From NCBI GenBank assembly GCA_003388505.1, contig QQVO01000036.1, positions 1 through 64,000 on the forward strand: a stretch of 64,000 nt of DNA. Direction: 5' to 3'. Positions 5,379 through 37,813 of the stretch are shown here, piece after piece; positions within the stretch are counted from its first letter, which is position 1, and each line of letters starts with the position of its first letter. The notes under the pieces were generated by a model. That model saw nothing but the letters and a program-made list of their open reading frames with translations, searched no databases and was not told the DNA's origin. Source of the DNA: Planctomycetota bacterium. GTDB taxonomy: Bacteria; Planctomycetota; Planctomycetia; Planctomycetales; Planctomycetaceae. Both the position numbers and the translations under genes were made by a program.

Positions 5379-5538
5379 CCCGGATTATTCATGACGAGGG
5401 CCCGGTTCACTATAAGCGTTTGCCAAACAGCAGGTTATCGAGAAGTTGCCCAAAGCGCCGCGCTTTTCGAACGCATTACACGCCGACGCCAATTTAACGG
5501 TGACGCACGCTGGCAGCGTGCGCTACGAATAATCCGGG
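5379..5538 (+). mobile_element. Family A miniature element, copy 1
   Basis: Exactly 160 bp bounded by perfect 12-bp inverted repeats (CCCGGATTATTC / GAATAATCCGGG) and flanked by the 4-bp direct repeat CTAA at 5375-5378 and 5539-5542, the expected signature of a transposition event. The interior has a strong hairpin (GCACGCTGGCAGCGTGC). It has no coding capacity, so any transposase must be supplied in trans. It sits between the 3' ends of ftsH and purF. Confidence 0.85.
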
Positions 5539-7691: not shown

Positions 7692-8912
7692 ATGTCGCTC
7701 GGAGCATTGCGATTCTTGCATGCGGCGAACGCGCGGCTGGACGCGCCGCCGCGGGGAACGGGGCCACTGACCGGCGACGCGCGGCGCGTGGCGGAAGACG
7801 CGACGCTGATTGCGTTTGAGCGTCTGGCGGACGCCTGCGTCGAGCATGACGCGGATTTTTTGCTGCTGACGGGCGAGACGTTTGACGCCGCGCCGACGCT
7901 TCGCGCGCGGCGGACGCTCTTGTCTGCGCTGGATGCGCTGTCGGAGTTCGGCATCATGGTGTACTGGGAGCAGTCGCCGGGAAGCGGGTGGCGGGGGGAG
8001 CAGCGAGCGTTGCCGCTGCCGGCGAATGTGGTGCTGCTGCGCGACGACGACTCGGAGCCGGTGGCGTTCGTGAAAGAGGGGCGGGTGGCGGCGATCATCG
8101 GGCCGGTCTCAGCCGTAGGCGACGGTGATGATGGAGAGGGAGTCGGCGCGTCGAACCGGGAGGGACCGATCCGGATCGGATGGGTTCCGCATGGCGCGAA
8201 CGAATGGGGCGCGGGGGAGACGTCGACTCTTTCGTTCGACGTTCGCCGGGAGGAGTTCGACTACCTTGGTTTTTCGAGCGAAATCCGGAGGACGGCCCGG
8301 CCGGGCGGGTCTGCGATGGTGCACTCGCCGGGCGGATTGCAGGGACTGTCTCGCGAGGAACGAGGGCCGCGCGGGGCGAGTCTGATTGCCGTTGGCGAGG
8401 AGCGGGACGCTGTGATCTCGTCGGTTCCGCTGGCGCCGTTGCGGTGGGAGGAGTGCCGGATCGGTGTCGACTCGCATCTGAGCGAAAACGAACTGATCGA
8501 GCGGATGCAGTTCGCGATGCTCGAACTGGAACGAGCGCCGACGGACGAGTTGCGGATCGTGCGGTGGGTGATGGTCGGTTCGGGACCGCTGTTTGAAACG
8601 CTGGCCGAACCGGGCGCCGCAGCGGCTCTGCTGGAGACGATCGATCTGGAACCGGGTTCCGGCGCCGGGGTTGAACAGCGGCATCAGTTCGAGTTTCGGC
8701 CGCGACGGGTGGCGAGCGACGACCCGCTGGTGGAAGAACTGATTTCGGGTTGGGACGGTCCTGAGAGTGAGGAATTCAACGCGGTTGTGGACGAGTTGGA
8801 GGAGCGCGCGGCGGCGTCGGACCTGTCGCCGATGGCGGCGAGTCTGGAGCGGGTGTCGCGCAGCCGCGCTCAGGAGACTGCCGGCCGACTGGGGCGCGAG
8901 TGGTTGGCCTGA
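7692..8912 (+). CDS. YhaO/SbcD-like calcineurin-fold protein lacking catalytic residues
   Basis: 406 residues aligning along their length with YhaO/SbcD/Mre11-type DNA exonuclease subunits and immediately followed by the YhaN/SbcC-like ATPase. The fold-defining strands are recognisable but the metal ligands are not. The first motif (normally D-x-H) reads HAANARLD (10-17), the GDxxD motif reads GETFD (61-65), the GNHD motif reads YWEQSP (91-96) and the GHxH motif reads GFSS (193-196). The PGGLQGLSREERGPRGASL segment after it still matches the family. Probably a structural, non-nucleolytic partner; I rate loss of nuclease activity as likely. ATG 7692 follows GGGGAAAGG. Confidence 0.75.
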   Translation: MSLGALRFLHAANARLDAPPRGTGPLTGDARRVAEDATLIAFERLADACVEHDADFLLLTGETFDAAPTLRARRTLLSALDALSEFGIMVYWEQSPGSGWRGEQRALPLPANVVLLRDDDSEPVAFVKEGRVAAIIGPVSAVGDGDDGEGVGASNREGPIRIGWVPHGANEWGAGETSTLSFDVRREEFDYLGFSSEIRRTARPGGSAMVHSPGGLQGLSREERGPRGASLIAVGEERDAVISSVPLAPLRWEECRIGVDSHLSENELIERMQFAMLELERAPTDELRIVRWVMVGSGPLFETLAEPGAAAALLETIDLEPGSGAGVEQRHQFEFRPRRVASDDPLVEELISGWDGPESEEFNAVVDELEERAAASDLSPMAASLERVSRSRAQETAGRLGREWLA

Positions 8913-9012
8913 GTTTCGGCTCGTGTTCTCTGTTGAGGAACGATGCGAGTGAATGGCCATGGGATAGCGGGAGCGGGTTCGGCGCTCCCGAACGGACGTT
9001 TGGGAACGAGGG

Positions 9013-9067
9013 GAATGTCACGTCAACGGTGGCGCACGCTGGCAGCGTGCGCTACGAATGATCCGGG
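9013..9067 (+). repeat. Family A right-end fragment
   Basis: The last 55 bp of family A, ending GAATGATCCGGG. It lies 28 bases before the start codon of the SbcC/YhaN-like gene. Confidence 0.75.
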
Positions 9068-9095
9068 TTAGACGACCACGGAAGGTGAGAGCGAA

Positions 9096-12000
9096 ATGAG
9101 GATCAGCGAGATCAGCATCGACCGGTTCGCTGCGTGGCGGAACCTGCAACTGCCGCTGCCGGGGGACGGACTGAACGTGTTGTATGGTCCGAATGAGACC
9201 GGGAAGTCGACACTGATGCGGTTTGTGCGGGCGATTCTGTACGGCTACTCGCCGGACGACGAGACGGGAACGGGGGCGCGGCCGAAGCGGGCGGCGTGCA
9301 GCGGGTCGCTCGAGGTGTGGGAGGGAACCGATCGTTACGTGTTGCGCCGCGAATCGAAACTTGGTTCCCGGGGCCGGCTTTCCGTCACCTGCAACGAGGG
9401 CGTCGTGAATCCTGACGAGGCCGTGGGCAGACTGCTGGGGGGGGTGTCGGCGGATGTGTATGAGCACATTTTCGCCGTGGGACTGACGGAGATGCAGGAA
9501 CTGGCGACGCTGGAAGGGGACGAAGTCGCGGAGCGGATTTACGAGATGTCGCTGGGGCGCGACGGGGAGCGGATCGTCGCCGCCTGGGAGAAGGCCGAGA
9601 ACGCGCGGCGGGACCTGCTCGATCCGGATCAGGAGACGGGACGGGTGGTCGAGTTGTCGCGGCAAATCGAGGAACTCGATCGGAAGATTCAGGCGGCGGG
9701 CGCTTCCCAGACGGATCATGCGGAGTTGCAGGCGCAGACGCAGCAACTGGACGCGGCGATTGCGGACCAGAAGAAGCGGCAGGCGGGATTGCAGGAGCAA
9801 CTGCGAGGACACCTGTTCATGGAGCAGGTGTTCGGCCCGTGGGAGCGACAGCGCAAGTTGCGGCGGGAACGGGACGGGCTGGCCTCGATTCCGGCGTTTC
9901 CCGAGGACGGTGTTGAACGGCTGGAACAGATTGAGCGGGACATCGCGGAGGCTTCTCGCGAGAAAGCACGGCTCAAGCAGGAGGCGGCGAGGTTTGCGGA
10001 GGGCGGCGAACGGACGGCGGCGCGGGACGCCGTTCGGCAGCATGCGCCGCGCGTCCGGCTGCTGATTGAACAGGCGCACTCTGTGCAGTCCGCCGCCGGG
10101 TCGCTCGGGCAGGAGCGGGAGCGAATCAAGTCGCTGCGGGGGGAGGTCGACGCGAGGATCCGTCAGTTGGGCGAGGGATGGTCGCTGGAGCGGTTACAGA
10201 GCTTCGACGACTCCTCCCAGGCGACGTCGCGATTGTTTCTGCAGGCGGACCGTTACCTGACGGCGCTGCGGCGACGATCCCGGTATGTGAAACGGTACCA
10301 GCGGAAGGCGGCCCACGCACAGAAGGTTCAAGCCGACTTCGCGGCAGAGACCGAGTGGCTGGACGGCGAAGACGCGGCGGTTGTCCGGAACCTGTTGGCC
10401 GCGACGGTTGACGACCTCCGCACCGCGCGGGAACTGAAGAGTCGCATGGAACTGGAGGAAATGAGAGCGGAGGCGGTGCGAGAGCAGATTGCGGCCGCGC
10501 GGGAACCGCATGAACTTCCGCGTCATTTCTACACGGTGTTGTGGGTGTTCGGACTTTCGGGATTGGGTCTGCTCACGCTGGGGCTGGTGCGGGCGTTTCA
10601 GAGTGAAGCGGGCTCGGCGCCGTGGATCATCGGAGTGATTTTCGGGTTGCTCGGACTGTGCTGCGCGGGCGTCACCTGGACGATCAAGGAGCACTTCGAT
10701 CCTCAACGTCGCCGGGAGTCGGGGCTGAAAGAGCGGCTGAAGGCAGCGACACGGGCGCGGGACGAGGCTCATTCCGAACTGGCCGCAGTTTGCGCCGGAG
10801 TGGCTGCGGACTGTCCCGAGTCGATTCGGGAACTCTCGCCGCATCGCGACGATTCGCTGGAAGACCTCGACCGCTCGCTCGACACGGCGCGGCAGCGGCT
10901 GGCCGAACTGACCCAGCTTGCACGGCGTGAGCGGATGTTGCTGTCTCGGCGTGAGCGGCTGAGCGTGATGCGCGGCCGGGTGCGGGATCTGCAGCGGAGC
11001 GTGAGCGAAGGGCGGCGCGACTGGTGCCTGCTGCTGAAGCAGATCGGTCTGGATGAATCGGTGGGCGTGCGAACGGCTCTGGAGACGTGGCAAACGGTGC
11101 ATCAGGCGCGCGAGGTTTTTTCTCGCTGGCAGGCGGCTCAGCAGGAACTCGCGCGAAAAGAGGCGGAGGTTCGAGAGTTTCAGGAGAAGGTGTCGCGGCT
11201 GGGCGCCGAGATTGACGGCCGGGAGGTCGCTCAGGGAGATGCGCTGAAGAAGCTGGATGAATGGAAGCGGCGACTGGACGCGGCTGATGCGGCGCGGGAG
11301 GAGCGACGAGAACTCGCTCGCCGGAGTCGTGCGATTCGGGCCGAACGGAGGAAGATTGCGGCGAGCCTGTCGCGACTGCGGGTCGACCGGTTGGCGCTGT
11401 TGGCGCAGGTCGGGGCGTCGGACCGGGACGAGTTTCTGAGCCGGCACAAGGCCCATCAGCGGCGGCTCGAACTGGACGATTTGCTGATCGCGGCCGGGGA
11501 AGAGGTGGAAGCGGCGGCCGCCGCGGAACCGGAACTGGCGGTCGTCGAAGAGGACTTGTTGAGGTTTGACCAGGCCGAGAACCGCGAAGCGATCGAGACG
11601 ATCCGGAATGAGTTGGGCGATCTGGAAGCGGAACTGCAACTGGGCCACGAGGAACTGGGGCGTTTGCGAGGCGAACTCCGGGCGCTGGAGAACAGCCGCG
11701 AAGAGGCCACGTTGCGATTCGATCGGGCGCAGCTAGCGGCCGAACTCGACGAGGCGACGCAGCGGCTGTGCGCGGTGGAGTTGACGCTGGACGGTCTGGA
11801 TGCGATCCGGGCGCGACTCGAACAGGGTTTGCAGCCGGAGACGTTGACCAGAGCCGCGCATTACCTGAAGCGGCTGACGCTCGGGAAGTACCAGCGGGTA
11901 TGGACTCCGGTGGGAGAGCGGCGATTGGTGGTCGACGATGAGCAGCGGGAGTCGCTACGGGTGGAGCAGTTGAGCAACGGAGCGCGGGAACAACTCTTCC

Positions 12001-12263
12001 TTGCGATCCGGCTGGCGCTGATCGAACAGTTCGAGGAACAGGGCGCGGTGCTGCCGGTGGTGCTGGACGACGTGGTGGTCAACTTCGATCAGCAGCGGAC
12101 GGAAGCGGCGGTGGAGACGCTGATGGACTTCGCGGCGCGCGGGCGGCAGGTGCTGATGTTTACCTGTCACCGGCATCTGGCGCAGCTATTCGAATCGGCG
12201 GGGGCTGCGCCGATCCGGTTGCCTGAGCCGGCGCTGGCGGTTGAGCGGCGGCAGGTGGGGTGA
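9096..12263 (+). CDS. YhaN/SbcC-like SMC-type AAA ATPase
   Basis: 1055 residues of the RecN/SMC/SbcC superfamily. Walker A is GPNETGKST (31-39). The ABC signature LSNGAREQ is near residue 957 and Walker B LPVVLDDVVVNFD near 985. Between them are long coiled-coil arms rich in Glu, Arg and Leu. Near residues 475-530 two hydrophobic segments (WVFGLSGLGLLTLGL and IIGVIFGLLGLCCAGV) form a membrane hairpin, as in YhaN rather than SbcC. Its partner is the degenerate YhaO-like protein just upstream, 183 bases apart with a family A fragment between. Likely role: membrane-associated DNA end or structure processing; substrate unknown. Confidence 0.85.
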   Translation: MRISEISIDRFAAWRNLQLPLPGDGLNVLYGPNETGKSTLMRFVRAILYGYSPDDETGTGARPKRAACSGSLEVWEGTDRYVLRRESKLGSRGRLSVTCNEGVVNPDEAVGRLLGGVSADVYEHIFAVGLTEMQELATLEGDEVAERIYEMSLGRDGERIVAAWEKAENARRDLLDPDQETGRVVELSRQIEELDRKIQAAGASQTDHAELQAQTQQLDAAIADQKKRQAGLQEQLRGHLFMEQVFGPWERQRKLRRERDGLASIPAFPEDGVERLEQIERDIAEASREKARLKQEAARFAEGGERTAARDAVRQHAPRVRLLIEQAHSVQSAAGSLGQERERIKSLRGEVDARIRQLGEGWSLERLQSFDDSSQATSRLFLQADRYLTALRRRSRYVKRYQRKAAHAQKVQADFAAETEWLDGEDAAVVRNLLAATVDDLRTARELKSRMELEEMRAEAVREQIAAAREPHELPRHFYTVLWVFGLSGLGLLTLGLVRAFQSEAGSAPWIIGVIFGLLGLCCAGVTWTIKEHFDPQRRRESGLKERLKAATRARDEAHSELAAVCAGVAADCPESIRELSPHRDDSLEDLDRSLDTARQRLAELTQLARRERMLLSRRERLSVMRGRVRDLQRSVSEGRRDWCLLLKQIGLDESVGVRTALETWQTVHQAREVFSRWQAAQQELARKEAEVREFQEKVSRLGAEIDGREVAQGDALKKLDEWKRRLDAADAAREERRELARRSRAIRAERRKIAASLSRLRVDRLALLAQVGASDRDEFLSRHKAHQRRLELDDLLIAAGEEVEAAAAAEPELAVVEEDLLRFDQAENREAIETIRNELGDLEAELQLGHEELGRLRGELRALENSREEATLRFDRAQLAAELDEATQRLCAVELTLDGLDAIRARLEQGLQPETLTRAAHYLKRLTLGKYQRVWTPVGERRLVVDDEQRESLRVEQLSNGAREQLFLAIRLALIEQFEEQGAVLPVVLDDVVVNFDQQRTEAAVETLMDFAARGRQVLMFTCHRHLAQLFESAGAAPIRLPEPALAVERRQVG

Positions 12264-13762: not shown

Positions 13763-13922
13763 CGGGGATTATTCATGACGAGGGCCCGGTTCACTATAAG
13801 TGTTTCTGAAACAACAGGTTATCGAGAAGTTGCCCAGCGCGCCGCGATTTTCGAACGGATCGCACCGCGATGTCACGTCAACGGTGACGCACGCTGGCAG
13901 CGTGCGCTACGAATAATCCGGG
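13763..13922 (+). mobile_element. Family A miniature element, copy 2
   Basis: 160 bp, left end CGGGGATTATTC (2 mismatches to the family), right end GAATAATCCGGG. The flanks ATTG and ATAG are a decayed 4-bp duplication. The right end is only 9 bases from the next start codon (13932). Confidence 0.8.
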
Positions 13923-13931
13923 ATAGACTTC

Positions 13932-14786: not shown

Positions 14787-14946
14787 CCCGGATTATTCAT
14801 GACGAGGGCCCGGTTCACGATTTGTGTTTGTGAGACAAAAGGTTATTGACACGCTGCCCAGAGCGATACGCTTTTCGAACGGATTGGACGCCGATGTCAC
14901 TTCAACGGCGACGCACGCTGGCAGCGTGCGCTACGAATAATCCGGG
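14787..14946 (+). mobile_element. Family A miniature element, copy 3
   Basis: 160 bp with perfect ends CCCGGATTATTC / GAATAATCCGGG. The flanking 4-mers are CTAG and CCAG (3 of 4 match). It ends 51 bases before the glycosyltransferase start at 14998. A short GCAAAGGCGCTAAG-type repeat fragment lies at about 14705-14745. Confidence 0.85.
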
Positions 14947-14997
14947 CCAGGCCGGCAGTTCTGACTTGTGACCACTGACTTCTGATCTCTGCCACGC

Positions 14998-36909: not shown

Positions 36910-37069
36910 CGCGGATTATTCATGACGAGGGCCCGGCTCTGCATAAGTCTTTGCCAAATATCGGGTTAGCGAAAAGTTGCCGAAAACCTCGCAATTTTCG
37001 AACCGATTGCACGCCGACGCCACGTCAACGGTGGCGCACGCTGGCAGCGTGCGCTACGAATCATCCGGG
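36910..37069 (+). mobile_element. Family A miniature element, copy 5
   Basis: 160 bp with ends CGCGGATTATTC / GAATCATCCGGG (one change in each) and a perfect 4-bp duplication CTGG (36906-36909 and 37070-37073). This and the next two elements fill the 1.1-kb gap 36726-37860, which has no gene. Confidence 0.87.
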
Positions 37070-37218
37070 CTGGCGCGCGCGGGAAGGGGGGGATCGAGGT
37101 TGAAGCGTGAGGTTCACTTCGGAACCGCGGGCTCGAACATGTCGGTCCGGCGACCCGAGTCAGCAGTCCAGGACCAATCCGGCCCCAGAGCACGAGACCG
37201 GTCGCACGAGGTGCGAAC

Positions 37219-37654: not shown

Positions 37655-37813
37655 CCCGGATTATTCATGACGAGGGCCCGGTTCAACATAAGTGGTTGGC
37701 GATCAGCAGGTTATCGAAAACTTGCCCAGATCGCCGCGCTCTTCGCACGGATTACACCCGATGTCAGGACAACGGTGACGCACGCTGGCAGCGTGCGCTA
37801 CGAATAATCCGGG
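37655..37813 (+). mobile_element. Family A miniature element, copy 6
   Basis: 159 bp with perfect ends CCCGGATTATTC / GAATAATCCGGG and a perfect 4-bp duplication ATCA (37651-37654 and 37814-37817). It ends 47 bases upstream of the ZIP transporter start. Confidence 0.88.

Follow-up and report, generated by a model that had tools for sequence, protein, structure and literature searches.

A conserved gene pair of Planctomycetaceae combines an Mre11-like pseudo-nuclease with a Rad50-like ATPase carrying a predicted membrane hairpin

Two adjacent genes in the window (the whole 64,000-nucleotide stretch of DNA analysed) raise the question of what a DNA-cutting machine may do once its nuclease subunit has no active site left. 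The first gene (7692..8912, + strand) encodes a 406-aa protein with a predicted Mre11/SbcD/YhaO-like fold, comprising nuclease and capping domains and C-terminal helices, in which all catalytic residues are lost, while the second (9096..12263, + strand) encodes a YhaN/Rad50-like ABC ATPase of 1055 aa with a long coiled coil and intact motifs. Both reading frames were found where the preliminary description had placed them, head to tail on the + strand with a gap of 183 bp and in the gene order of YhaO-YhaN pairs. The ATPase was recognised by the Pfam models AAA_27 (E 1.2e-15) and AAA_23 (1.6e-11), and the 406-aa protein returned zero Pfam or NCBIfam matches at E values up to 1. None of the scanned pseudo-nucleases (the 406-aa protein, the paralogue in its own genome and L010) matched a Pfam model, so that such proteins escape automatic annotation. 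Adjacency of pseudo-nuclease and ATPase holds in every homologous locus long enough to judge, and this gene pairing, together with co-retention, suggests that the two proteins may form a complex. Among the 66 loci examined no third conserved neighbour gene was observed; larger shared neighbour sets were rejected as antisense artefacts or common planctomycete genes.

The active site was scored over eight positions, consisting of seven metal ligands (D, H, D, N, H, H, H) and the catalytic His. Compared with the intact clade, the 406-aa protein retains 0 of these 8 positions; of the 54 further positions at which intact homologues never vary, it keeps 23. In the alignment, the former motif I (D-x-H) now reads N13-A14-R15 (7728..7736), the former motif II (G-D) reads G61-E62 (7872..7877), and the former motif III (GNHD) is absent, its region being occupied by VYWEQSPGS (7959..7985), or VYWEQSPGSG with the next residue. 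The former motif IV (LHTS) region is now GWVPHG (8178..8195), and that of motif V (W-A-L-G-H-x-H) is DYLGFSSEI (8259..8285) with both His lost, all on the + strand. These replacements agree with what had been described for D-x-H, GD and GNHD. The change of GHxH to GFSS was also described correctly in that no His is left (LGFSSEI), but the ungapped alignment assigns the two His positions to S196 and I198, not to F194 and S196.

The remainder of the protein retains its architecture, as the preliminary description had supposed. In a profile-profile comparison (hhalign), the alignment of the family profile of the 406-aa protein to intact YhaO extends across 354 columns and has a probability of 99.9%. 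The AF2 model, built from an alignment of 27 family sequences, has a mean pLDDT of 82 and a pTM of 0.79; among solved structures, Mre11 and SbcD match it best (Foldseek E 3e-11). The structural match spans residues 2-339; that with Mre11 reaches Z 21.7 over 300 residues and covers both the nuclease and capping domains. The assignment as an Mre11/SbcD-fold subunit without an active site is thus well supported by sequence comparison and by the predicted model. The length of the pseudo-nuclease varies, with one subclade (L051, L052, L055, L058, L155-L157, L161-L169) encoding forms of 530-600 aa, approximately 100-150 aa longer than the others.

Homologues of the 406-aa protein were present in 81 of the 99 relatives searched, and 104 non-redundant homologous proteins formed the comparison set. 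Catalytic residues showed a bimodal distribution in this set, with 33 proteins keeping 8/8, one keeping 7/8 and 70 keeping 4/8 or fewer; none of the 104 keeps 5 or 6. The pseudo-nuclease clade that contains the 406-aa protein, hereafter the window type, accounts for 55 of the 70 degenerate homologues. Its members retain 0-2 of the 8 catalytic residues and come from 55 different genomes among the 61 Planctomycetaceae genomes sampled, with a partial copy (L037) in a 56th. The family was named from the named matches, which include Planctomicrobium, Fuerstiella and related MAGs. Across the family as a whole, a match at E 1e-80 or better was obtained in at least 134 of 170 genomes, a cut-off that exceeds the best score of any intact homologue examined (250 bits). 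A loss that is recent or restricted to the source genome was rejected on the basis of this lineage-wide occurrence. Close orthologues with intact motifs, regarded by the preliminary description as a sign of simple decay, were absent: the close relatives are all degenerate, and the intact proteins fall into separate clades.

Across the 55 window-type homologues, catalytic positions are retained at 8%, compared with 41% for the other intact-invariant positions (permutation P = 0.0026), which indicates that the catalytic loss is not due to chance. The dN/dS ratio (NG86) of the pseudo-nuclease lies mostly at about 0.05-0.15 in close pairs, beside 0.06 in an intact pair; two divergent pairs (L112/L116 and L113/L118) reach values of up to approximately 0.36. 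Identity between genera is approximately 30%, and the pseudo-nuclease evolves faster than the intact clade. Taken together, it is strongly supported that the degenerate subunit is a pseudoenzyme retained lineage-wide under purifying selection; the maintained pseudo-nuclease complex initially proposed is therefore upheld by its lineage-wide occurrence, its single clade, its selection regime and its pairing with an intact ATPase. Furthermore, a viral origin was set aside, since a single-protein query found no relatives in viral contigs.

The motifs of the partner ATPase are intact, as had been noted. Motif alignment located Walker A (GPNETGKST, aa 31-39, 9186..9212), the ABC signature (LSNGAREQ, aa 959-966, 11970..11993) and Walker B (VVLDDVVVNFD, aa 988-998, 12057..12089) on the + strand, and the H-loop is also kept. 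Every window-type ATPase sequence long enough to cover them has Walker A and Walker B, and nearly every one has the signature and H-loop. At the apex of the coiled coil, hydropathy and AF2 predict a first transmembrane helix at aa 476-502 (10521..10601, + strand) and, after a turn of 5 residues, a second at aa 508-534 (10617..10697, + strand), with charge-free hydrophobic stretches at aa 477-498 and 505-530. AF2 places both helices between coil arms 183-468 and 536-911 in a monomer model with a low pTM (0.36), of which the secondary structure alone was used. No CxxC zinc hook was found in the middle of the 1055-aa protein, and the ATPase is predicted to carry a two-helix membrane hairpin where Rad50 has its zinc hook.

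A hydrophobic hairpin was found in every window-type ATPase examined, although in one subclade (L052 and kin) its hydrophobicity is weak, with a best 19-residue mean of 1.58. All 9 ATPases encoded beside a member of the main intact YhaO clade (L043, L045, L047, L048, L204, L206, L210, L211, L214) lack it, and six further intact pairs, which lie outside this clade (L042, L200-L203, L208), have it. The occurrence in these six pairs makes it likely, as judged from sequence, that the complex descends from a membrane-type form whose nuclease still worked.

The history of the loss was traced in two trees. With the catalytic columns removed, the nuclease tree recovers two degenerate clades, that of the window-type proteins (support 100/99) and another of 13 rows from families f1, f5, f7 and f9 (98/87), and joint monophyly of the two groups is not rejected (p-AU 0.364). 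The ATPase tree, built without nuclease sequences, unites all 34 ATPases from degenerate pairs in a single clade (support 100/99.7). Its neighbours are the ATPases of intact membrane-type pairs, the nearest of which belong to other planctomycete families. This single clade suggests that the nuclease was probably lost once, long ago. Two independent losses were considered and set aside because the ATPase tree favours one loss; the nuclease tree alone cannot decide. Outside the class of the source genome, 19 of 19 homologues examined are intact (18 with 8/8 and one with 7/8). A partly degenerate form was also observed in related planctomycete families (L049, L050, L119-L124, L130), keeping 2-4 of 8 residues with D-x-H mostly kept, GNHD and most later ligands missing, and membrane-type ATPases where examined. 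These proteins possibly represent an intermediate state.

Comparison with known systems places the pair between several of them. With SbcCD/Mre11-Rad50 it shares adjacent genes, an SbcD/Mre11 fold with capping domain and a Rad50-like coiled-coil ABC ATPase, whereas it lacks metal ligands and CxxC zinc hook and has a predicted apex membrane hairpin instead; the pseudo-nuclease is also unrecognised by the SbcD model TIGR00619 or any Pfam or NCBIfam model. YhaO-YhaN resembles it in gene order, in an AAA_27 ATPase with Walker A, signature and Walker B, and in an adjacent homologous calcineurin-fold subunit, but the nuclease motifs are lost in the present pair. YhaN of B. subtilis is a membrane protein; a plasmid search returned no classical YhaN for comparison of membrane helices. 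A metallophosphoesterase fold that no longer catalyses serves as a structural subunit in the B-subunits of eukaryotic DNA polymerases and in Vps29 of retromer, which differ from the present case in their partners, in having no Rad50-like ATPase and in their independent loss. One relative (L105) gave a weak, sub-threshold match to DNA_pol_E_B.

We propose, with middling confidence, that the pair forms a membrane-anchored Mre11-Rad50-like complex that has no nuclease active site and acts on DNA at the membrane. The apex hairpin would insert in the membrane and leave the two halves of the ATPase head on the cytoplasmic side, the even number of crossings allowing them to assemble. A pseudo-nuclease dimer may bridge two ATPase heads as in Mre11, and ATP binding would close the heads on DNA. 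Cutting being impossible, the machine would hold, sense or tether DNA at the membrane. A DNA-bridging or signalling role, as first put forward, would be plausible, and the hairpin, which the preliminary description had not remarked on, makes membrane-tethered action a likelier mechanism than free bridging. In human MRN, a 'sensing' state that clamps DNA while the nuclease is autoinhibited lends itself to tethering and signalling (PMC12446458), and ATM activation by MRN is reported to be independent of Mre11 nuclease function (PMC3642328). Two observations weigh on the other side. The identity of about 30% between genera reflects faster divergence than would be expected if every Mre11 interface were kept, which counts against an Mre11-like complex. 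The pseudo-nuclease core is also more acidic than that of intact homologues (-5.9 versus -3.8 net charges per 100 aa), which counts against a DNA clamp and does not favour DNA contact mainly through this subunit. Structure and ancestry of the pair are well supported, and its function would be that of a membrane-tethered, nuclease-free DNA clamp; the evidence fits tethering and break sensing alike.

A repair machine that recognises broken DNA ends and passes them to a separate nuclease, with membrane attachment being secondary, is a possible but rather doubtful alternative. The source genome, which is 98.8% complete, has no match to TIGR00619 (SbcD) or TIGR00634 (RecN) in the whole assembly, and no intact YhaO was found in it, the best score (77.6 bits) being that of the 406-aa protein itself against at least 318 for intact ones; such a genome would need an end-recognition factor. 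Its other large AAA_23 protein resembles SMC. The retained Mre11 fold and ATPase also suit end recognition, as do the nuclease-independent roles documented for MRN (PMC12446458, PMC3642328). However, 25 of the 61 family genomes also carry an intact, non-membrane YhaO pair, so that degenerate and intact forms coexist and are not simple substitutes, and no repair gene occurs among the conserved neighbours of the 66 loci. We regard it as improbable that the old active-site pocket was re-used for a ligand or partner, with the complex reporting the state of DNA or membrane. Residues unconserved in intact homologues and specific to the window type, namely W292 (100%), W100 (89%) and H211 (78%), would fit such re-use, but the residues of the pocket are not uniform across the family, and neither a signalling domain nor a conserved signalling neighbour was found for the pair.

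The remaining explanations are less probable still. An SMC-like defence against phages or plasmids is brought to mind by Lamassu (LmuAB) and archaeal SMC-related proteins, which likewise combine an SMC-like ATPase with few partners and to which the pair shows weak profile matches. PADLOC matched the ATPase weakly to LmuB (E 1.4e-16) and to other defence ATPases. The LmuB matches mostly reflect the common ABC head, and the pair, unlike Lamassu, has no LmuA effector; its partner is a pseudo-SbcD without a PADLOC match, and it is chromosomal and near-universal in the family as opposed to patchy defence islands, which makes a defence role very unlikely. We consider a still active nuclease or other hydrolase with non-canonical residues just as hard to credit: H10, D17 and H211 near the old site are conserved, but H10 and D17 are equally so in intact homologues, and neither the catalytic His nor any of the seven metal ligands remains, with replacements that vary from one relative to another. 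Neutral decay of a nuclease on its way to loss, for which the alteration of all motifs and the faster evolution of the subunit might speak, is the most improbable of all. The low dN/dS, the intact frames in 55 genomes, the deep single clade and the stable pairing with an intact ATPase argue against it, and the pseudogene reading was rejected given this selection and lineage-wide conservation.

Returning to the membrane-tethered clamp, the source genome encodes a second pair on contig C1 (L039:7541-8737 and 8822-11632), in which the pseudo-nuclease paralogue keeps 1 of 8 catalytic residues and the 937-aa YhaN-like ATPase has no membrane hairpin and carries DUF4332/helix-hairpin-helix domains at its C-terminus. 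L040 has the same architecture as this pair (L039:7541-11632), and L041 is a related pair. More tentatively, Planctomycetaceae may have converted a membrane-type Mre11-Rad50/YhaNO nuclease into an ATP-driven clamp that is near-universal, has no nuclease and fastens chromosomal DNA to a membrane, the second copy having lost the hairpin and gained helix-hairpin-helix (DUF4332) domains as a soluble counterpart.

No prior description of an inactive YhaO or SbcD family, including in planctomycetes, was found in the open literature; the parts are of known kinds, and the combination of lineage-wide inactivation with a membrane-type ATPase is new. Research on Mre11-Rad50 has centred on its nuclease activity, from which the roles in tethering and signalling are difficult to disentangle. 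The apparently single, ancient, family-wide removal of the nuclease with the ATPase kept provides a natural separation-of-function experiment, in which a DNA-cutting machine was seemingly turned into a non-cutting one. Planctomycetes have condensed nucleoids and elaborate membranes, and the pair suggests a membrane-attached SMC-like machine in these bacteria.

Additionally, a dispersed repeat of about 160 bp was observed in five copies in the window (5380-5538, 13766-13925, 14788-14947, 36912-37071 and 37656-37813). It is MITE-like, an inner GCACGCTGGCAGCGTGC hairpin being flanked by terminal inverted repeats (CCGGATTATTC ... GAATAATCCGG). The genome contains at least 40 copies with 84-99% identity, 40 having been scored out of 187 first-look candidates.
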